Assembly: GCA_902489515.1 (NCBI GenBank)
Contig: CABUAL010000014.1
Span: forward strand, 1 to 15,184
Direction: 5' to 3'
DNA length: 15,184 bases
DNA from: an uncultured Collinsella sp.
GTDB taxonomy: Bacteria; Actinomycetota; Coriobacteriia; Coriobacteriales; Coriobacteriaceae
Part shown: piece after piece, positions 1 to 14,413 of the stretch
How the letters are laid out: every line of letters starts with the position of its first letter
How positions within the stretch are numbered: position 1 is the stretch's first letter
Notes under the pieces: model-generated
Seen by the model: only the letters and a program-made list of their open reading frames with translations
Told to the model about the DNA's origin: nothing
Databases searched by the model: none
Made by a program: the position numbers and the translations under genes

Positions 1-3000
1 CGGCCGAAAGCGCAGTCACCGTGTAGTCACTCGAGGCCACGTACAGGCCGTCATCGGGAGCGCCGTCGACGTGCTTCCAGGCGCCCTTCTCGATGCGGTC
101 GATGCCCACGATACCCGAGGCGTCCTTGCCGTCGAGCGTCTTGAACGTCCAGGTGAGGCCGGGCTCGGTCACGCTCCAGCCGTCCGCGTCGTTTTTACCG
201 GTAAAGGTCAGGTCGAGCTTTTGCGCCGAGCCGGCCTTGAGGTAGAGGCTGTCCGTGCCGGCCGTCACGCTCGCAAGCGGATTTTGGTAAGCATAAGTCA
301 CGTCGCACGACGCGCTGATGACCTTGCCATCGGCGTCCGTGTCGGGCAGCGTCGCGGTAAACGTGGTGGTGCCAGCCTTGTACGCCGTGTAGCCGATCTC
401 GCCCGCGGTGGCGTAGGCCGCCACGGCAGGATCGCTGCTCGTCACGGTAAAGTTGTCGCGGTTGGTGGCGTTGTCGGGCGCCACCACCGGGCGTGCGTGA
501 TCGGTCAAAAACGCGCCGCGCTCGGAGAGCGGGTTGCGGCCCTGCAGGTAGACGGTGGCGCCGTCCTCGTTATAGCCCATCGAGATGGACGTGGCGGCCA
601 CGGCTTCTGACGTCAGCGTCACGCTCTTGGAGCCAGCGCCCGCAGATGCGACGTCGCGCGGGGTAACGGTGATCGTGGCACTGCCGGCATGCTTGAAGTA
701 AAAGCAGGCCGAGTAGTCGTTGCTGTAGATGGTCGTAGGATCGCTCGAGGCAAAGTAGAAGCGGCTGAACGAAACGGGCACGTACTCGTCCTTATCGGCG
801 TCGACGTAATGCACGCGCACCTCGAGGTTGCGCACCTCGGAGCCCTGGACGGTAGCCGCACCATCGGTCACGTCGCTCACGGTGCCGTCGGAGGCACGAT
901 ACCACAGCTCAAAGTCATCGAACTGTTTGGCCTTGGCCTTGATCTTGATGGTGGCCACGGTCTGCTCGGAACCATTGGCCTTATGCTCGGTGGCGGTCAC
1001 CGTGCCGGTGGCGTTGTCGTAGATGTAGAGCTCGCCCGTGGACTCGTTGATACCGATGTTTCCGCGGTTGGCATCGTCGGTGCCCCAGGTGACGGTGCTC
1101 GTGGCCGGCACGCCCTTAAGCGCAAAGACGCCAAGTTTGCGGTAGGCGTTCACAGCGTCGGGCGAAACCTCGAGCATATGGTCGGCAACCGCCTGGCTGG
1201 TGCCGTCGTTGGCCGTGAAGCTCACGGTGTAGGTGTCGTCGGGCGTGGTATCCTCGGGCGCCTGGTAGCTGTTGCCCGAGCCAAAGACCGGCGTGCCATT
1301 TTTATCGATACCCCAGCTGCTGCCGTTGGCGCCGCAGTTAGCGTTGATGAGGTCGGCGAAGGCGTCGGTGGCCATGTCGGCCGGGTCGACGGCATAGGAG
1401 TTGACGAGCGCCGAGGCGGGGGCGTCCATCTTGTTGGTGAGGAATGCGCCCCAGTAGGTGTTGACGAGCTGGCCCGCGTTGTAGGTCGCGAACAGCGCGC
1501 CCGCCGTGCCCTCGGAGGTCGACACGCAGTTGGACACGATGCCGCCGTCGAGCGTGCGCGCAAAGCCCGCAACGCCCTTGCCGGTCACGCTCGTGGAGCA
1601 GTTGAGCACGGCGCCCTGCACACTGTTGCCCAGGGGGCCGAACGCCTTGCCGTCCGTCGCTTGCTTCAGTTTGCCGGCAAACGAGATGTTCTGCACCACG
1701 CCCATGGAGGCAACGCCGCCCATGAGCGACTTCACGCCACCGCCGTTGGCGAAGGTGATGGTGTGGCCCTGACCGTCGAGTGTGCCCGCAAGTATGCCCA
1801 TGGGAGCAAAGAAGTACTCGTCATCGATGGTAATGTCGTTGTCGAGAACGTAATAGGCGTCGGCGTTGGCGTCGGCGGGTTTGAACTTGTTTTCGAGGTC
1901 GCTCTGCGAGCTCAGGTGCACTACGTTCTGCGGCTGAGCCACGGGCTCGGTGGGCTTGGGCTTCTCGAGCGCGGCAATGGCATCGGTGAGCGTCTTGGTT
2001 GCGGCGTTGACCTCGGCCTGCTTGGCGTCATCGTTGGCGTAGACGTCTTGAGCGCTCACAAGGGCCTCAGCGAGCTTCGACCAGCTCTCGGCCGTGTAGT
2101 CGTTCTCGATCTTGGCGTTGGCATCGTCAATCGCAGCCTTGAGGGCATCCTTGTTCACGACGACCGCAGCGCCGCCCGAGATCAGCACAGGCAAACCGCC
2201 CTGCGCAGACCAGGTAAAGCCGGTGGCAGGGGCATCGGTGTTGAGCTTATCGACCGAGGCCTGGGTCTTGAGGTCGTCGACAGAGATTTTGCTGCCAAAG
2301 GAAGAATCGACCTTGTAGCCGCACGCCTGATCGCCCGCAGTGAACAGATTGTTGGTCACGGTGCCAGACTGATACCAGGCAACGAGGCCGTAACCGCCAA
2401 AGGGCATGCCGCTGAGGCTGCCGGCGTAATACGAGTTGAGCACCGAACCGCCATCGAGCTTGCCTACAAGACCGGCAGCGTCAGCGAAAGTCCAATTGTC
2501 GTCAGAGGGGCTTGCCGTCGACCAGCACATTTGCACGGTACCCGAGCATGTGGTGGCGATAGGACCGTCGGTGCCAGAAATCGTCATCGAACCCGTCACG
2601 CCCAGATTCTGTACCGTACCAGCCACGCTCTTCGCCAGCGCCTTGCCGTTGAGCACGATGCTGTGGCCCTGGCCATCGAGCGTACCGGCCACGGTCTCGA
2701 TCTGTTGGCCAGCCTCAAGGCTGATATTCGCCGCGAGCTTCACGACAGCCCCGGCCTCGATGGTGGTGGGCAGCTCATCGGCAAAAGAGACCATCACGGT
2801 CTCGCCGGCCTTGGCGACGCGCGCGCCGCGTGCCTGCTGAGCATCGGCATCCTCGTCGTCGATGTCCGCCGCGGCAGCAAGGCTCTCATCGGCAGACGGA
2901 GCGGCCTCGGAGCTCGCCTCGTCCGCCGATGCCTCGGCGCCTTCAGCACCCGTCTGCTCGTCCGCAGTGAAACTCGACTCGTCGGCATTCTCGGCAGTAT

Positions 3001-3148
3001 CCGCCTGCTGCGAGGCCTGGGCCTGCGCCTGCACAGCGATCTCTGCCACGCCCTCGGCAAATGCCGACGTACCCGGCATCGACCAGACGAGCAGCGCCGA
3101 GAAAGCAGCGGCTCCCAGGCGCTTGAGCATAATGTTGTTTCGCGTCAC
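1..3148 (-). CDS. Large secreted surface protein, C-terminal part outside window
   Basis: The frame is open from a GTG at 3148 to the left edge (1049 codons, no stop), so the C-terminus and any wall anchor are unseen. The GTG is preferred over the in-frame ATG at 3130 because AAGGAG lies 5 nt before it. Residues 1-31 form a signal peptide (basic start, hydrophobic LGAAAFSALLVW, cleavage near SAFA). Residues ~33-105 are acidic, Ala-rich low complexity. Two beta-helix-like stretches, each with an LDGQGH motif and GLUG-type repeats, span ~150-270 and ~450-570. A FIVAR-like helical segment (~328-396, ending DAIAALEK) separates them. Ig-like beta domains fill ~640 onward. This architecture is typical of Gram-positive adhesins or ligand-capture proteins. 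The leader holds a cobalamin riboswitch, which suggests a role in corrinoid acquisition or metabolism. That role is inference only, since no corrinoid-binding domain is visible in this part. Confidence 0.85.
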   Translation of the reverse strand, partial: MTRNNIMLKRLGAAAFSALLVWSMPGTSAFAEGVAEIAVQAQAQASQQADTAENADESSFTADEQTGAEGAEASADEASSEAAPSADESLAAAADIDDEDADAQQARGARVAKAGETVMVSFADELPTTIEAGAVVKLAANISLEAGQQIETVAGTLDGQGHSIVLNGKALAKSVAGTVQNLGVTGSMTISGTDGPIATTCSGTVQMCWSTASPSDDNWTFADAAGLVGKLDGGSVLNSYYAGSLSGMPFGGYGLVAWYQSGTVTNNLFTAGDQACGYKVDSSFGSKISVDDLKTQASVDKLNTDAPATGFTWSAQGGLPVLISGGAAVVVNKDALKAAIDDANAKIENDYTAESWSKLAEALVSAQDVYANDDAKQAEVNAATKTLTDAIAALEKPKPTEPVAQPQNVVHLSSQSDLENKFKPADANADAYYVLDNDITIDDEYFFAPMGILAGTLDGQGHTITFANGGGVKSLMGGVASMGVVQNISFAGKLKQATDGKAFGPLGNSVQGAVLNCSTSVTGKGVAGFARTLDGGIVSNCVSTSEGTAGALFATYNAGQLVNTYWGAFLTNKMDAPASALVNSYAVDPADMATDAFADLINANCGANGSSWGIDKNGTPVFGSGNSYQAPEDTTPDDTYTVSFTANDGTSQAVADHMLEVSPDAVNAYRKLGVFALKGVPATSTVTWGTDDANRGNIGINESTGELYIYDNATGTVTATEHKANGSEQTVATIKIKAKAKQFDDFELWYRASDGTVSDVTDGAATVQGSEVRNLEVRVHYVDADKDEYVPVSFSRFYFASSDPTTIYSNDYSACFYFKHAGSATITVTPRDVASAGAGSKSVTLTSEAVAATSISMGYNEDGATVYLQGRNPLSERGAFLTDHARPVVAPDNATNRDNFTVTSSDPAVAAYATAGEIGYTAYKAGTTTFTATLPDTDADGKVISASCDVTYAYQNPLASVTAGTDSLYLKAGSAQKLDLTFTGKNDADGWSVTEPGLTWTFKTLDGKDASGIVGIDRIEKGAWKHVDGAPDDGLYVASSDYTVTALSA

Positions 3149-3155
3149 CCGTTCT

Positions 3156-3196
3156 CCTTCTTTCGCGAACCTGCAATAGAGCCATGGCGAAGAAGG
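3156..3196 (-). promoter_or_regulatory. Possible SD-sequestering hairpin of the riboswitch
   Basis: On the minus strand, CCTTCTTCGC (3196-3187) can pair with GCGAAAGAAGG (3166-3156), leaving one bulged base. The right arm contains the AAGG of the AAGGAG ribosome-binding site for the GTG at 3148. The arrangement fits a translational expression platform, in which corrinoid binding upstream would favour hiding the RBS. The pairing is seen in the sequence. Its use by the riboswitch is inferred. Confidence 0.45.
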
Positions 3197-3328
3197 CGGG
3201 ACAGGCGATACCCCGGCAGCACAAAGGCGCACGTCAGCCACCCTATCGGCAGCAAAACGCACGCTCAGCAGCACCCCTTGTAGACCGGAATCCAGCGGCA
3301 AACAGAGAGGCCCTCGGTTTCGAGAAGA

Positions 3329-3440
3329 GCGCGGGCAGGTAATCTGACTCGTGGGCGCGCCCGCATACAGTAACCGCCTTGCTCGGGATTCTCACCCGAT
3401 TCCCCTTTATGCGCTCGCGCGCACCCGTGCTCCGGCTTCT
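3329..3440 (-). ncRNA. Cobalamin riboswitch aptamer
   Basis: Read on the minus strand, the region shows the hallmarks of the B12-element family in the right order. The core GGGAA-T-CGGGTGAGAATCCCGAGC (3405-3381) has its self-complementary CGGG/CCCG arm. It is followed by GGCGGTTACTGT (about 3379-3368) and then the B12 box AGTCAGATTACCTGCC (3349-3334, family consensus AGCCAGGAGACCTGCC). The stretch between ACTGT and the B12 box is short, so this is a compact variant with little of the optional P7-P10 arms. The element sits between a promoter at 3457-3486 and the surface-protein start at 3148, with ~180 nt of leader after the B12 box. Outer aptamer boundaries are approximate. Confidence 0.85.
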
Positions 3441-3456
3441 ATTTTTAATCGGAGGA

Positions 3457-3486
3457 AGTGTACGTTACCGCAGGTAAATCGGTCAA
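3457..3486 (-). promoter_or_regulatory. Promoter for riboswitch and surface-protein gene
   Basis: The minus strand shows TTGACC (3486-3481), an 18-nt spacer and TACACT (3462-3457), a fair sigma70-type match. Transcription would begin near 3450, just upstream of the cobalamin aptamer, giving a leader of about 300 nt. Confidence 0.5.
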
Positions 3487-3588
3487 TGCGCTACACAAAA
3501 AACCGCCATACCCGAGCCATATGGCTCCCGGATGACCACCTATAGGCAACCCATATCGCCACTAGGCCGCTAACGAACCAAGCCCGCC

Positions 3589-3719
3589 CGCAAGATTGAG
3601 CGGGCCGAATGTCCCCCGTGGGGCTGAGGGGGCCAAATGTACCTGTTAGAAGCCATTTAAGCGTTTTTACAGGGACTTTTGGCCCCCTCAGTCCCACGGG
3701 GGCTTTTTGGCCCGCTCAT
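3589..3719. repeat. 131-bp palindromic intergenic repeat, copy 1
   Basis: This sequence recurs at 6164-6294 in the same orientation with 7 mismatches and no indels (about 95% identity). Each copy is a long imperfect palindrome. The arms here, 3599-3643 and 3672-3716, match at 38 of 45 positions around a 28-nt loop, and the ends read AGCGGGCC and GGCCCGCT. No transposase or convincing coding frame is present. It resembles a MITE-like or REP-like non-autonomous element. The two copies bracket the C69 peptidase gene. Confidence 0.85.
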
Positions 3720-3805: not shown

Positions 3806-5950
3806 TTAATTCGCACGCTTGCGGATAAGCACGGCCCCCATAACGGCCAGAACTCCAGCCACCGTCAGAAGCGCCACGGTCACCACAGACGAATCACCGG
3901 TCTTGGCAAGCCCTCCCTTGGTCGCCTTCTTGGCGGTATCGGTCTTGACGTCCGTCTTCACATCCGTCTTCTGACCGGGCTTCTGCCCAGGCTCCTCCTG
4001 CGCAGCCTGCGTCACGGTCACCGTCGCATCATCGGACGTGGAAACCAGCCCGGCAGCACTCGTCACCTCAACGCGATACACCTTTGAACCGACCTCGGTC
4101 GTCGCGGCGACGTACTCAGCCGCCGTCGCCCCGTCGATGGCAGAGAAGTTACCGTCCTCGCCCTTGACGAACCACTGGTAGGTAAGCTGGGCATCCGAGC
4201 CATCCACGCTGTCATCAACCGTCGCGGCAACGCTCAGCTTGGCCTCAGCGCCCTGAGCACACGTTACCGACTGCGGCTGAGCCGTGATGCTGGGAGCAAC
4301 AAAAGCGGACGCGTACATAATCGGGGTCCGGGAGGTTCCATTCTCGGCGTCATAGTCGCTCGGCATAAACGCACTCGAGGTATCTCCCGCATTCACATAG
4401 GCGCGCATCTCATCGAGAAGCTTGGCCGCCTTGTTGTAGACCTGTTCGCTCACTGCGGCAAACGCCTTGTTGGCAAGGTCCGTGCGCTGATCGGCAGGGG
4501 TCGCCTGCATCAACCCGTCAACAACGTCCTGCTGGGCGATAACCTGCTTCTGAAGGACATCGAGGTAGGCGCGCACGTTCTCACCCATCGAGGCACGGTT
4601 GTTGTAGGCGAGCGTGTTGATGTCCATGAAGACGTAGTCGAGGTTCTTGCCGTCCTTTTCGACCAAAGCCTGCGCAACGTCGTCCTTGCGTCCTGTATAA
4701 GTGCCGTCCACCGTGTTCCACGCCGGGAAGTAGTCAGCCGGAACTTCCGTCAACAGCGCAGAGTAGCTGGGCAGGTACACGCTGAACTCGCAACGCGAAA
4801 GCGCTTCCCACTGAATCGTGGCGATATCACTGGAAAGGCCGGACCGAATCTGGAAGATATTGCCCTCGGTCGTCCTGTTGTTGCCGATGGCATACAGGGC
4901 ACTGTTGAGATTGGCGTTGAGGCTGTCATCCTGCTCACCGCGGGCAGCGAGGGAACGCAACGCCGTGAACGTATCGGATTTGATGCCCGGCGTAAACGTC
5001 AGCTGCGGGTCGATGAGCGAGGTGACGCGACCCTGTTCATCAACGGTATAGTCCGTCTGAGGCGCAAGGGCAGCACCGAAGTAAGCACGTCCCTGGGCCA
5101 GGCGCGTATTCTGCGACGAACCCGAATTCTCCTTGCCATACGTCTTGAAGATGTTCGGCGTGCCGTCGTCATAGGTTACGAGAACGTCGTTGGACTCGGG
5201 CAGCGTCACGACATCGGCCGAGTGCAGGCACTGACTCGCATCGTCAAGATCGACCTTATACTGCAGGCCGCCGATGTTGGGATTAACGGACGCCACGTCG
5301 TCGCCCATCTTGACGGCAATCCACTGATGGCCCGAAAGCTGAGCGAAAATCCAGGTCTCGGTATTGTCGGCAATGACGATCTGGTTGCAGTCCTGAGAGC
5401 CATACTGATCGATGATGGCGCCGAGCTTCTCCACGCCGTCGCGCGCCGTGGACGAAACGCTCAACAGGTAGTCGGCCAGGTTATACTCGCCGATGCCCGT
5501 GTCGACACGAGGGTCGATAGCATCGATTCCGTCGTTGTAATCCGTTGTGAGCGTCGCGGAAACGGAGACGCCGCGCTCGTTGGTGCCGGCCTCGGAATAC
5601 ACGCGGGACGCTGCCTCGTCGTCCTGGGCATCCCACTCATCGGGATTGTCACGAACATAGGTGTAACGATACGAGCGACCCTGATAGGTGTACTCAAAGC
5701 CGGTCCCCGGCACAGAATCGTTCTCGAAAGAACGGAAGACAGGGTTGTCGATCGGCTGCTGCACGCCAAAGGTCTTGCAGTAGCGAGGTGAATAGTCCTC
5801 GGCGCGGCCGACATAGGTATCGCCCGTCGTTGTCTGGTTCTTACCGATGTAAACCTGCGTGCAGGCGAGCGCGGGCGCGGGCATGGCAAGCACAAGCGCC
5901 GCGACTATGCCCCCCCTAAACGCCTTCTTAGCAAAAGCCGGTAACCTCAT
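3806..5950 (-). CDS. Secreted, wall-anchored C69-family dipeptidase
   Basis: This 714-residue protein belongs to the C69 (PepD-type) dipeptidases, Ntn hydrolases whose nucleophile is an N-terminal cysteine. The start at 5950 follows GGAGGGGAG by 5 nt. An in-frame ATG at 6010 lacks such a site and would bury the signal peptide. Residues 1-29 form a signal peptide ending PAPALA. Cleavage there would expose Cys30 (CTQVYIGKN...) as the catalytic N-terminus, followed by the family's GDTYVGRAED stretch. Residues ~553-645 are an Ig-like domain (YQWFVKGEDG). A Lys/Thr/Asp-rich spacer with TDVK repeats leads to the sorting signal LAKTGD (681), a hydrophobic segment and the tail RKRAN. LAKTG is a sortase-motif variant. 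The enzyme would cleave dipeptides at the cell surface. The gene is monocistronic and flanked by 131-bp direct repeats. Confidence 0.9.
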   Translation of the reverse strand: MRLPAFAKKAFRGGIVAALVLAMPAPALACTQVYIGKNQTTTGDTYVGRAEDYSPRYCKTFGVQQPIDNPVFRSFENDSVPGTGFEYTYQGRSYRYTYVRDNPDEWDAQDDEAASRVYSEAGTNERGVSVSATLTTDYNDGIDAIDPRVDTGIGEYNLADYLLSVSSTARDGVEKLGAIIDQYGSQDCNQIVIADNTETWIFAQLSGHQWIAVKMGDDVASVNPNIGGLQYKVDLDDASQCLHSADVVTLPESNDVLVTYDDGTPNIFKTYGKENSGSSQNTRLAQGRAYFGAALAPQTDYTVDEQGRVTSLIDPQLTFTPGIKSDTFTALRSLAARGEQDDSLNANLNSALYAIGNNRTTEGNIFQIRSGLSSDIATIQWEALSRCEFSVYLPSYSALLTEVPADYFPAWNTVDGTYTGRKDDVAQALVEKDGKNLDYVFMDINTLAYNNRASMGENVRAYLDVLQKQVIAQQDVVDGLMQATPADQRTDLANKAFAAVSEQVYNKAAKLLDEMRAYVNAGDTSSAFMPSDYDAENGTSRTPIMYASAFVAPSITAQPQSVTCAQGAEAKLSVAATVDDSVDGSDAQLTYQWFVKGEDGNFSAIDGATAAEYVAATTEVGSKVYRVEVTSAAGLVSTSDDATVTVTQAAQEEPGQKPGQKTDVKTDVKTDTAKKATKGGLAKTGDSSVVTVALLTVAGVLAVMGAVLIRKRAN

Positions 5951-6163
5951 ACGTTCTCCCCTCCACACGGAGCCCGAACTACCCACCAACAATATGCGCA
6001 ATGAGAACACTTTAGCTGGATAAATCGGATTGAATATGCAGTTATCAGCTTATCTTATGTGTTAAGGAAGTATGGACACGGCACTCGTAACAACCCGTGA
6101 CCGGTCGTTTGCATCTGGCAGGCGGCATTCCCCGCAGGGTTGAACAGGCCGATAAGCCCCGTG

Positions 6164-6294
6164 CGCAAGATTGAGCGGGCCGAGTGTCCCCCGTGGGGCT
6201 GAGGGGGCCAAATGTACCTGTTAGAGGCCATTTAAGCGTTTTAACGGGGACTTTTGGCCCCCTCAGTCCCACGGGGGACATTTGGCCCGCTCAT
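6164..6294. repeat. 131-bp palindromic intergenic repeat, copy 2
   Basis: This is the second copy of the element at 3589-3719, in direct orientation and offset by 2575 bp. Its arms (6174-6218 and 6247-6291) match at 40 of 45 positions, so this copy is closer to a perfect palindrome than copy 1. It ends 68 bp before the start of the HAD hydrolase gene and lies ~210 bp upstream of the C69 start. Confidence 0.85.
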
Positions 6295-8280: not shown

Positions 8281-8817
8281 TTACTTGCGGACGACCTTAA
8301 CGATGGCGTCACCAGCAGCAACGGCAGACTCAGCCTCGACGGCGAGCTCGACGTCGGCGAACTCGGCGGTGTTGGACACGGCCACGACGACGCAGTCCTT
8401 ATAGCCGGCAGCGGCGATCTTGGCGCGGTCGATCTTGAGCATGGGCTGGCCAGCCTTAACGACATCGTCAGCCTTGACGAAGCCCTCGAAGCCGTCGCCG
8501 TTCATGTTGACGGTATCGACGCCAACGTGCACCAAAACCTCGATGCCGCTATCGGACTGCAGACCCACGGCGTGACCCATGGTGACGGTCACCTTGCCGT
8601 CGCAGGGAGCGTAGACCAGATCGTCCTCGGGCCACACGGCGCAGCCCTTGCCCAGCACCTCGCCGCTAAAGACGGGATCGGGCACGTCGGCCATCTTGAT
8701 GACCTTGCCCTTGACGGGCGAGCACAGCACGTCGGCGCCGGCAGAAGTAGAGATGGAGGCAGGAGCAGCGGCAGCCGCGGGCTCAGCCTTCTTCTTGAAC
8801 ATGTCAAACAGACCCAT
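8281..8817 (-). CDS. crr: PTS glucose-type EIIA protein, stand-alone
   Basis: This 178-residue cytoplasmic protein belongs to the glucose-family EIIA phosphocarriers. It accepts phosphate from HPr and passes it to a membrane EIIB. Residues 1-25 are a short linker with an Ala/Pro run (FKKKAEPAAAAAPAS), and the EIIA fold follows (VLCSPVKGKVI, VYAPCDGKV). The active-site histidine is His97 in VLVHVGVDTVN, with the partner His82 in MGHAVG 15 residues before it, the same spacing as in E. coli Crr (75 and 90). ATG 8817 follows AGAGGAGAAAACGT. The gene has its own promoter (8867-8895) and a strong terminator, and no EIIB or EIIC gene is in the window. It may therefore serve several permeases. The linker-like N-terminus could also mean it derives from a fused EIICBA. 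Confidence 0.92.
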   Translation of the reverse strand: MGLFDMFKKKAEPAAAAAPASISTSAGADVLCSPVKGKVIKMADVPDPVFSGEVLGKGCAVWPEDDLVYAPCDGKVTVTMGHAVGLQSDSGIEVLVHVGVDTVNMNGDGFEGFVKADDVVKAGQPMLKIDRAKIAAAGYKDCVVVAVSNTAEFADVELAVEAESAVAAGDAIVKVVRK

Positions 8818-8866
8818 ACGTTTTCTCCTCTTGATTAAGCGCAACGTTATGCGCATGCCTATGGTG

Positions 8867-8895
8867 ATTATAGTGCCAAATGGCCAAATTGCTAA
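8867..8895 (-). promoter_or_regulatory. Promoter of PTS IIA gene
   Basis: On the minus strand, TTAGCA (8895-8890), a 17-nt spacer and a perfect TATAAT (8872-8867) precede the IIA gene. The start near 8860 gives a leader of about 43 nt. The spacer carries two related blocks, TTTGGCC and TTTGGCA. Confidence 0.7.
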
Positions 8896-8899
8896 GGTC

Positions 8900-8920
8900 A
8901 GGGCTCGAGTCGAGAGCCCT
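8900..8920 (-). terminator. Weak hairpin after HAD remnant
   Basis: AGGGCTC pairs with GAGCCCT around a 7-nt loop, with no T-run. It lies between the HAD remnant and the IIA promoter and could end read-through from the GH1 gene. Support is weak. Confidence 0.3.
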
Positions 8921-8968
8921 TCCAGGCCCTTCCCAAAACCTTTTCCCCAGTGGCACTCATATTGTCGA

Positions 8969-9073
8969 TTAATCCTCGATAAGCCCCAGGCGAACGAAAG
9001 CGTTCCAGATGCCGCCGTCATCGACGTCGGTGGTCACGCAATCGGCTGCCTGTCCGGCGTTCGGCAGAACGCC
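8969..9073 (-). pseudogene. C-terminal remnant of a Cof-type HAD phosphatase
   Basis: Directly after the GH1 stop, the minus strand reads a short frame with no start codon of its own: NAGQAADCVTTDVDDGG, then IWNAFVRLGLIED and a TAA stop (8971-8969). The order N-A, then D-x-V-T-x-D-V-D-D-x-G-I, then a final helix ending GLI is the usual C-terminus of Cof/SupH-like (HAD subfamily IIB) sugar phosphatases. Those proteins are ~260-280 residues long, and only ~34 remain. The rest appears to have been deleted, joining the remnant to the GH1 3' end. Family identity rests on this short match alone. Confidence 0.6.
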
Positions 9074-9075
9074 GG
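9054..9075 (-). terminator. Hairpin downstream of GH1
   Basis: The perfect 9-bp stem CCGGCGTTC / GAACGCCGG has a 4-nt loop and starts 21 nt beyond the GH1 stop codon. It has no T-run. It overlaps the beginning of the HAD remnant, so the palindrome may also mark the deletion joint. Confidence 0.4.
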
Positions 9076-9096
9076 AACTCAATCGCCGAAACTCAA

Positions 9097-11726
<2,630 letters not shown>

Positions 11727-11842
11727 AGCTCCACCATCGTTGATTTAGTCATATTCTGCCGTGGTTTTGATATTAGCAGGGCAGCGCGGACGACGTACCC
11801 TGACTTCAATCGATTTAAAAGGTTGGTTTTAGAGGAGTGGAT
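11727..11842. promoter_or_regulatory. Divergent promoter/operator region of AraC and glycosidase genes
   Basis: The 116 bp between the divergent starts must hold both promoters and probably AraC sites. It is AT-rich relative to its surroundings, with GTTGATTTAG near 11739, TTGATATTAG near 11768 and TCGATTTAAAA near 11811, but no -35/-10 pair stands out in either direction. AGAGGAG (11831-11837) is the ribosome-binding site of the glycosidase gene. Confidence 0.5.
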
Positions 11843-14413
11843 ATGGCAGCATACGGCAACCATGTGCTTCCGTTCTTGTGGCTCAAGGGCGAAGAACGCG
11901 AGACGATTACCGAATACTTAGAGCAGATTGCCGGCGCAGACATCCATGAGGTCTGCCTTGAGTCGCGCACGCATCCCGAATTTTGCCGCGACGGCTGGTG
12001 GTCCGACCTGCGTTTTATCATTGGCGAGTGCAAGCGCCTGGGCCTTAAGATCTGGCTGCTCGATGATGCCCACTTTTCCACGGGCTACGCCAACGGCGCG
12101 CTTGCAGGCGAGGATGTAGACCCCGCGCTCAAGAAGACTGTGCTTAAGCATCACACGGTAACGGTCGTTGGACCCCAGCCGTCCACGACCATCAAGCTCG
12201 GCAACCTCATGGATCCCACGGAGCACTTTGTGGGCGCGGCGGGTTTTGACGCTGCCGGCGCATCGCTCGACCTTGAGCTCGCCGTTGAGCAAACCGAGGG
12301 CGGCACTCCCGCCTGCCTGCGCTTTGACGCTCCCGCCGGCGTCACCACCCTCGAGCTCTACGTCACCAGCCAAAAGACCGGCTTTCGCGATGAATACATC
12401 AACATGGTCGACGCCGATTCGTGCCGCATGCTCATCAACGCCGTCTACGAACCCACATTCACGCATCTGGGCGACGAGTTCGGCAAGACCATTCTGGGGT
12501 TCTTTACCGATGAGCCTGGCTTTATGAACGAGAAGGGTGCGACCCTCGAAGACGCTTCTACCAGCAGCTTTATCGGACGCGGTGACATGGCGCTGCCATG
12601 GTCGGACGAACTTGCGCGACGCCTGCACGAGGCACTGGGCACAAATTGGCTGAGTGAGCTCCGCGGGCTTTGGACGCGCGACCCCGCCGGCGCTCGGGTC
12701 CGCCACACCTACATGGACATCGCCACGCAACTCTACCGTGCGTGCTTTGACGAGCAGATTGGTGACTGGTGCCGCGAGCGCGGCGTTATGCACATTGGCC
12801 ATGTAATCGAGGACAAGAGCTGCCACACACGCTTGGGCCAGGGCGCTGGGCACTACTTCCGCGCTGTCGCCGGTCAGGACATGGCGGGCATCGATGTGGT
12901 TATTAACCAGCTCGCCCCCGGCATCGACCACGGCCCTTACAGCTACTTCCATGGCGCATGGAACATGGAGTTCTTTACCTACGCGCTTGCCAAACTGGGC
13001 TCTTCGGCCGCGCGCCTCGACCCCAAAAAGCAAGGGCGCTGCATGGCCGAGGTCTTTGGCGCCTTTGGCTGGCACGAGGGCTTGCGCGAGATGAAATGGA
13101 TTGCCGACCACATGCTCGTCCGCGGCGTCAATTGGTTTACGCCGCACGCGTTTAGCATGGCGCCCTTCCCCGATTGGGACTGCCCGCCGCACTTTTACGC
13201 GCACGGCAATAACCCGCAGTGGCCGCACTTTGGCCAGCTCATGAGCTATATGAACCGTACGGCAACGCTGCTTTCGGAAGGCTGTGCCACGCGCCCCGTC
13301 GCCATCCTGTACCATGCCGATGCCGAATGGGCCGGTAGCGCCATGCCTATCGAGCGCTTGGCGGCAGAGCTCACGCGCGCGCAGATCGACTTTGATTTTG
13401 TGCCCGCCGAGGCTTTTGAGGACAAGAGCCGCTACAAGGTTTCGATTGCCGATGGATTGCTTGGTGTTAACAACTGCCACTACCAGGCATTTGTTATGCC
13501 CGGTGCTACGTTTATTGGCGCGGAGACGGCAAAGGCGGCGAGATACATGACGGATGCAGGCGTTATGGTGCTTGCCGTCGACGAGGTGCCCGGCGCATTC
13601 TACGATTCCGATGGCGCGGTCGAGCTGGGAGGACTCGTCGCAACGCCGCTCGCCGATGTCGCCCGCGCGCTTGCAAGCGCGGGACTGCAGACCGTTGTGC
13701 CTGACACACCGCAACCCTGGCTACGCGCACTTCGCTACAAGCGAGCAGGCGAGACCTACGTTATGCTCGTCAACGAGCACCCACGCGAGCACATCGACTG
13801 CACGGTTGCACTTGCGACAGGCGAGCGCCTTTGCGGCACGCGGCTCGACCTGCTAAACGGTGCCGAGCCCGTTGCGTTTGACGGTGCGCTGGAGCTCGCA
13901 CCCTTCGAGAGCTGCATCGTTGTTTTGCAAGCGAGCAACGAGGATGCGCCCGGAGACGGCGTAATCGACGCTGATACATCGCTCGGCCTGCGCATCGAAG
14001 GCCCATGGACCGTTGCCCTCTCCCCTGCCGGCAGCAATGGCGCCTTTGGTGAAGCACAAGAGCTCAAACACCTGGGCGACCTTACGGCCGATCTGTTCAC
14101 CGGCACCTGCGGCACCTACCGATATCATGCGTCGTTTGAGCTGGCCAACGATTGCACCGACGCCACGATCGACCTGGGAGACGTCTACGAAACCGCAACG
14201 CTCACGCTCGATGGACGCTCGCTCGGCACACGCATCTGCCCGCCCTATCGTTTTGCCGCCGGCTCACTTTCCGCCGGTGCGCATGAGCTCGCGATCGACG
14301 TCATCAACACGCTCGACCATGCGATCCCCGACATCTTCGGTCTCACCGAGCCCGTCGCCCCCAGCGGCATCCTCGGCCCCGTTACCCTTTGCGGGCAAAA
14401 CCTGCCAAAATAA
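11843..14413 (+). CDS. Large cytoplasmic glycoside hydrolase-like protein (GH106/GH2-like architecture)
   Basis: This 856-residue protein has no signal peptide. The N-terminal part looks like a TIM-barrel glycosidase: strand-like FLWL, then CLESRTHPEFC, WWSDL and IWLLDDAHFSTGYANG. Acidic candidates for catalysis are Glu224 in FFTDEPGF and Glu403 in MAEVFGAFGW, and GVNWFTPHAFS follows. The middle (~490-680) is an alpha/beta region of the beta-galactosidase-trimerisation type. The C-terminus (~710-850: GLRIEGPWTV, TATLTLDGRSLG, HELAIDVINTLDH) is a GH2-like jelly-roll sugar-binding domain. The layout recalls alpha-L-rhamnosidase-type GH106 and relatives, but family and substrate are not certain. 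ATG 11843 has AGAGGAG 5 nt upstream. A GTG at 11837 overlaps that site. An AraC gene is divergent and an RpiR regulator follows 42 nt downstream. It probably acts on imported oligosaccharides or plant glycosides. Confidence 0.75.
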   Translation: MAAYGNHVLPFLWLKGEERETITEYLEQIAGADIHEVCLESRTHPEFCRDGWWSDLRFIIGECKRLGLKIWLLDDAHFSTGYANGALAGEDVDPALKKTVLKHHTVTVVGPQPSTTIKLGNLMDPTEHFVGAAGFDAAGASLDLELAVEQTEGGTPACLRFDAPAGVTTLELYVTSQKTGFRDEYINMVDADSCRMLINAVYEPTFTHLGDEFGKTILGFFTDEPGFMNEKGATLEDASTSSFIGRGDMALPWSDELARRLHEALGTNWLSELRGLWTRDPAGARVRHTYMDIATQLYRACFDEQIGDWCRERGVMHIGHVIEDKSCHTRLGQGAGHYFRAVAGQDMAGIDVVINQLAPGIDHGPYSYFHGAWNMEFFTYALAKLGSSAARLDPKKQGRCMAEVFGAFGWHEGLREMKWIADHMLVRGVNWFTPHAFSMAPFPDWDCPPHFYAHGNNPQWPHFGQLMSYMNRTATLLSEGCATRPVAILYHADAEWAGSAMPIERLAAELTRAQIDFDFVPAEAFEDKSRYKVSIADGLLGVNNCHYQAFVMPGATFIGAETAKAARYMTDAGVMVLAVDEVPGAFYDSDGAVELGGLVATPLADVARALASAGLQTVVPDTPQPWLRALRYKRAGETYVMLVNEHPREHIDCTVALATGERLCGTRLDLLNGAEPVAFDGALELAPFESCIVVLQASNEDAPGDGVIDADTSLGLRIEGPWTVALSPAGSNGAFGEAQELKHLGDLTADLFTGTCGTYRYHASFELANDCTDATIDLGDVYETATLTLDGRSLGTRICPPYRFAAGSLSAGAHELAIDVINTLDHAIPDIFGLTEPVAPSGILGPVTLCGQNLPK

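Follow-up and report, generated by a model that had tools for sequence, protein, structure and literature searches.

A cobalamin riboswitch precedes a giant Collinsella surface protein that is probably a bacterial vitamin B12 catcher

A cobalamin riboswitch upstream of a giant surface-protein gene

We analysed a stretch of 15,184 nucleotides (hereafter, the window) from contig CABUAL010000014.1 of an uncultured Collinsella sp. (GCA_902489515.1). Its features are the following.

2..3148, minus strand: first 1049 codons of a surface-protein gene with a GTG start, cut at the window's left edge, with no stop over 1049 aa
1964..2152, minus strand: FIVAR domain, residues 333-395 (Pfam PF07554, E 6.6e-7, over the gathering score; three helices in the model)
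2177..2800, minus strand: beta-helix region, residues about 117-324 (strands in AlphaFold2 model m165b8849820b, mean pLDDT 87.3)
3284..3299, minus strand: post-aptamer hairpin GCCG-CUGGAUUC-CGGU, seen by eye
3317..3443, minus strand: cobalamin riboswitch aptamer (RF00174), compact form (Infernal, 46.0 bits, E 5.5e-9)
3457..3486, minus strand: sigma70-like promoter candidate TTGACC-18-TACACT (9 of 12 matches, shuffles mean 0.3; consensus match only)
3806-6010: C69-family peptidase (PF03577; NCBIfam C69_fam_dipept below its cut-off)
8281-14413: sugar-use cluster with a PTS EIIA, a GH1 glycosidase, an AraC-type regulator and a sub-threshold GH106 (alpha-L-rhamnosidase) match

An earlier note on this DNA had proposed a B12 element with its core at 3381-3405 and its B12 box at 3334-3349, and both lie within the RF00174 match, which runs from 3443 to 3317 on the minus strand. 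The Infernal search that the note had suggested gave a score above the gathering score of the family (31.5 bits), with the full model (1-189) covered and the match placed upstream of the open reading frame on the same strand. The aptamer is compact, with 7 nt in place of a stretch of 62 model positions. The promoter that the note had placed at 3457-3486 was recovered by our promoter scan.

The same gene is preceded by RF00174 in three loci from Collinsella metagenome-assembled genomes (L001 and L002 with 48.2 bits each, L003 with 46.8), which are the same assemblies as genomes G032, G034, and G031 of our genus set and are counted once. A more distant homologue (53% protein identity) in locus L020, from genome G029 of the same genus, has a sub-threshold RF00174 match directly upstream (25.7 bits, E 0.015). 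Aptamer identity between the window and L020 is 72% (92/127), against 43% (23/54) in the upstream flank and 45% (70/156) in the remaining leader. The window forms 26 of the 36 model base pairs and L020 forms 24, while the changes in pairs between them, one two-sided and four one-sided, are too few to weigh. The loop of the hairpin at 3284-3299 is complementary, by eye, to aptamer positions 3391-3386, a pairing which we take to be a possible L5-L13 kissing loop; in L020 the stem is kept and the complementarity of the loop is lost (also by eye). Our scan for an intrinsic terminator between the aptamer and the start codon returned a single weak candidate (3326-3311), at the 3' end of the aptamer, and the stability of the leader fold is not above that of shuffled sequences (z -0.28).

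The open reading frame listing opens the gene at TTG 3301. We favour the GTG at 3148 because it is accompanied by an AAGGAG Shine-Dalgarno sequence and a signal peptide, both seen by eye. The complete gene is found in L001 (10025-14545), where it encodes 1507 aa, and in L003 (1517 aa). The window protein is 99.2% identical to the L001 copy across the shared 1049 aa and 96% identical to that of L003, and the DNA of L001 and L002 is 98-99% identical to the first 7.0-7.3 kb of the window. The previous description of a secreted protein of more than 1049 residues holds: the frame is open to the edge, and the full copy starts with a signal peptide. The window ends before the C-terminal parts, whose architecture was read from the L001-L003 copies. 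In L001, the signal peptide is followed by the beta-helix and the FIVAR domain, then by another beta-rich region, and then by an alpha/alpha-toroid, with a hydrophobic segment at the C-terminal end. By eye, a separate domain spans residues about 1100-1385, after which come a low-complexity stretch, the hydrophobic segment, and a basic tail. FIVAR is the sole Pfam family in the window protein, and also the sole one at E<=1 in the full copies of L001 and L003. The beta-helix and FIVAR parts of the architecture proposed earlier are retained. Its Ig part is not confirmed, since no Ig family was found in the protein by Pfam at E<=1. The C-terminal search for DUF4430 that the note had recommended found none in the same chain in L001 and L003 (Pfam, E<=1).

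The neighbourhood has features of its own. Downstream of the surface-protein gene lie convergent hypE-, hypD- and hypF-like genes (by eye). In the window, a 137-nt palindromic repeat (3583-3719 and 6158-6294, 93% identical) flanks the peptidase gene, whose product has, by eye, a signal peptide, an LAKTG-like sorting signal, and a membrane helix. In L003, the stretch between the repeats has no blastn match (E<=1e-20) and its two flanks adjoin each other, which suggests that the repeats may have mediated a gain or a loss of the peptidase module. Some miRNA-family matches in the RNA-family search of the window were regarded as artefacts because they sit on the palindromic repeat.

The toroid domain and its relatives

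Since the window ends before the toroid, this domain was analysed on the L001 copy. It is homologous to toroids linked to DUF4430, a domain of the transcobalamin beta type, and 9 of its 92 relatives also carry DUF4430 in one chain. In four aligned relatives, the toroid comes after the same long region. At the sequence level, no match to animal transcobalamin, intrinsic factor, or haptocorrin (Pfam family Cobalamin_bind) was found, either by Pfam on L001 and L003 (E<=1) or in the comparison of the toroid profile. A comparison of the predicted structure matches the toroid to the transcobalamin-type carriers, and to terpene cyclases at least as well.

Given the latter resemblance, the toroid might act as an enzyme outside the cell, either cyclase-like or corrinoid-modifying, and not as a binding domain. 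The profile and the model both match terpene cyclases strongly, and two residues invariant in 13 of 13 toroid rows (D139 and T141) line up with a stretch of a cyclase that we take to be its DxDDT motif. Against this, the last Asp of the motif is replaced by L, I, M, or A in all 13 rows (by eye), and terpene cyclases are not typically exported to the cell surface. We regard an enzymatic role as very improbable.

Genomic company across Coriobacteriia

We searched 396 genomes of the class with the toroid profile, and 46 were positive at E<=1e-10. In the 42 of these outside the genus of the window, we then searched for RF00174 and DUF4430, counting riboswitches that lay at most 8 kb upstream on the strand of the toroid gene, and DUF4430 genes within 6 kb on that strand. 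A riboswitch match lies upstream of the toroid gene in 25 of the 42 genomes, spanning 17 genera, a DUF4430 gene lies nearby in 30, and both are present in 20. For comparison, 0.15 toroid-riboswitch pairs are expected by chance, under uniform placement and ignoring kinship between genomes. Ten of the 26 toroid-adjacent riboswitch matches are above the gathering score. Among the 21 genomes with a single riboswitch match, the toroid gene is its downstream gene in 17; over all 59 matches, 25 are near neither a toroid nor a DUF4430 gene. The upstream riboswitch was undetected in 17 of the 42 genomes, including 4 where the toroid is less than 1 kb from the start of the contig.

We inspected 11 of the 25 riboswitch-bearing toroid loci for the genes of ECF transporters, all chosen for having the riboswitch. 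S components and ATPases are present in 11/11, and T components and DUF4430 in 10/11 each. The S component of L086, the only one tested against the PDB, has as best match CbrT (6fnp, E 6.7e-9); its substrate is presumed, as Pfam places it in the riboflavin-type S family.

Separately, at locus L089 (7378-14529), a sub-threshold B12-riboswitch match (28.6 bits) precedes the gene for a protein of 2384 aa. This protein combines a toroid, ricin-B lectin repeats, and the cobalt-chelatase domain CbiK (PF06180, E 5.5e-68), a fold that is apparently extracellular here.

These neighbourhoods bear on a further explanation, in which the protein is a B12-responsive adhesin or a helper of glycan degradation, B12 signals the gut niche to the cell, and the ligand of the toroid is another one. 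The beta-helix and FIVAR would fit adhesion, the toroid fold is common to proteins unrelated to B12, and sugar-metabolism genes are close by in the window. However, it was the search with the toroid, not with the N-terminal part, that found riboswitch and DUF4430 neighbours in 17 genera, and the inspected toroid loci carry CbrT-like ECF genes. Such a role seems to us quite unlikely.

In Collinsella, the parts are found in separate places. Among 43 genomes of the genus, DUF4430 is present in 42, an S homologue in 42, a B12-binding domain in 38 (one such protein, in G031, is MetH-like), and the toroid protein in 4. RF00174 is above the cut-off in 3 of the 43, namely the three assemblies that contain L001-L003. 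In the toroid-bearing genomes (G029, G031, G032, and G034), the toroid gene and the DUF4430 genes are on different contigs, and the T, ATPase, and S genes of the ECF-CbrT type are clustered at another site. No cobalamin riboswitch was found at E<=1 at the Collinsella ECF loci L101, L103, L104, L105, and L098, a scan that covered three of the four toroid-bearing genomes (L102 was left out). Neither a DUF4430 relative nor one of the ECF genes was found by tblastn in the window, L001, L002, or L003, and the search for an adjoining transporter of this kind, which follows up the earlier note, was negative in these four loci. The adjacency of riboswitch, toroid, DUF4430, and ECF genes does not extend to the lineage of the window, where this site holds the riboswitch and the toroid only.

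Another type of cobalamin riboswitch, AdoCbl-II, has a match right before a surface/DUF4430 gene in five of six scanned loci (L021, L022, L023, L044, and L050, with no match at L047), above the gathering score in L021 and below it in the other four. As L021-L023 had been selected for weak riboswitch matches, the unselected count is two of three; the scan left out L045, L046, L048, L049, and L051-L053. In one genome, a single locus (L023) holds the riboswitch together with the genes for DUF4430, T, the ATPases, and S. The simplest reading is that a once-compact system has since been dispersed in Collinsella.

Three of the genes right after AdoCbl-II matches encode giant surface proteins (L044 8587-15918, L050 10597-14535, and L021 2899-7566). 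DUF4430 occurs in three stretches of the L044 protein and as one sub-threshold match in that of L021, and the L050 gene has four matches. Propeller-like matches in L044 and L021 are under the Pfam cut-off. The N-terminus of protein P0087, suspected by eye to be DUF4430-like, was not confirmed on testing.

The scattering of the genes could also mean that no partner is needed, the toroid binding corrinoid alone or with the beta-rich region of its own chain as a one-protein device. The lack of DUF4430 in the protein is in line with this, as are the constant position of the toroid after the same long region in the aligned relatives and the separate contigs of the toroid and DUF4430 genes in the four Collinsella genomes. 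Yet the toroid usually has a DUF4430 gene close to it in the other Coriobacteriia (the 30 of 42 genomes above), some relatives hold both domains in one chain (the 9 of 92), and the part of PMC1796856 used here describes the ligand of transcobalamin as sandwiched between two domains. We consider a self-sufficient toroid unlikely.

A proposed split transcobalamin-like system for B12 capture

Our analysis demonstrates the riboswitch, the architecture of the protein, and the kinship of its toroid to toroids that are linked to DUF4430. For other Coriobacteriia, it demonstrates that the riboswitch and the genes for toroid, DUF4430, and ECF are linked. The surface protein is probably a bacterial vitamin B12 catcher, because its distal part is similar to one of the two halves of the animal carriers and its relatives often pair this half with the other one and with a B12-type importer. 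More specifically, we favour, with some confidence, the view that it is the alpha half, now dispersed, of a transcobalamin-like system that captures B12 with two separate halves, and that it is secreted, membrane-anchored, and riboswitch-controlled. The earlier note had arrived at surface capture of corrinoids from the regulation alone. That idea gains from the kinship of the toroid and from its company elsewhere, while the DUF4430 domain and the adjoining transporter are missing at this locus.

In the split system, low intracellular cobalamin would lead the leader RNA to permit expression, and the exported protein would be anchored by the hydrophobic segment at its C-terminal end. Its beta-helix, FIVAR, and subsequent beta-rich region may serve as a stalk or bind glycans or matrix, and the distal toroid would be the alpha half of a corrinoid clamp. 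Separate surface proteins carrying DUF4430, which in several Collinsella genomes sit behind the putative AdoCbl-II riboswitches, would supply the beta half in trans. The corrinoid would then be handed to an importer of the ECF-CbrT type and used by enzymes such as methionine synthase. Scavenging of host B12 by the surface protein is speculation.

Extending this to the class, the odds seem to us even that a split transcobalamin is present on the cell surface of Coriobacteriia, human-gut genera among them. Separate toroid and DUF4430 proteins under cobalamin riboswitches would clamp corrinoid outside the cell and feed ECF-CbrT, and in Collinsella the system would consist of scattered units, of which at least two are under riboswitch control.

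The idea has a precedent. In the part of their article used here, Burroughs et al. 2007 (PMC1796856) describe Gram-positive surface proteins with a toroid and a domain of the transcobalamin C-terminal type (the SLBB clade that includes DUF4430), proposed to bind extracellular B12, and toroid proteins with FIVAR, Ig, and propeller fusions. Our protein resembles these in its alpha/alpha-toroid, its secreted or cell-surface location, its FIVAR fusion, and its predicted B12 binding. In contrast to them, and to animal transcobalamin, intrinsic factor, and haptocorrin, which according to the same part of the article hold the toroid and the beta domain in a single chain, the DUF4430/SLBB half is absent from this chain and encoded in other genes. 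The word "riboswitch" has no occurrence in the main text of that article. New with respect to it are the control by cobalamin riboswitches, the encoding of the two halves by separate genes, and the operon with ECF components. The ECF-CbrT transporter has been shown to import B12, as stated in the part of PMC5997447 used here, and one of the toroid operons has an S component homologous to it; unlike ECF-CbrT, the operons of Coriobacteriia add extracellular toroid and DUF4430 proteins. We did not find the link between riboswitch, toroid, DUF4430, and ECF genes in the literature available as open-licence full text, which is weak evidence of absence.

As with other riboswitch-controlled genes of B12 uptake, RF00174 here precedes a gene with a presumed function in uptake. 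The usual targets of cobalamin riboswitches in this process are transporters, whereas here a giant surface protein with several domains is controlled.

To our knowledge, the extracellular collection of B12 by Gram-positive gut bacteria is poorly known. With its B12 riboswitch, its transcobalamin-like halves, and its importer of the CbrT type, the recurrent locus provides specific proteins on which this can be tested. It also makes testable, with binding assays, the idea, put forward in the part of PMC1796856 used here, that the B12 carriers of animals were acquired from surface proteins of Gram-positive bacteria, and it points to a way in which actinobacteria in the gut might compete for B12. 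If the class-wide reading above is true, Coriobacteriia would have a split transcobalamin made of the same kinds of domains as the B12 carriers of their host. Such a system would be a Gram-positive functional counterpart of surface capture of the BtuB/BtuG type.
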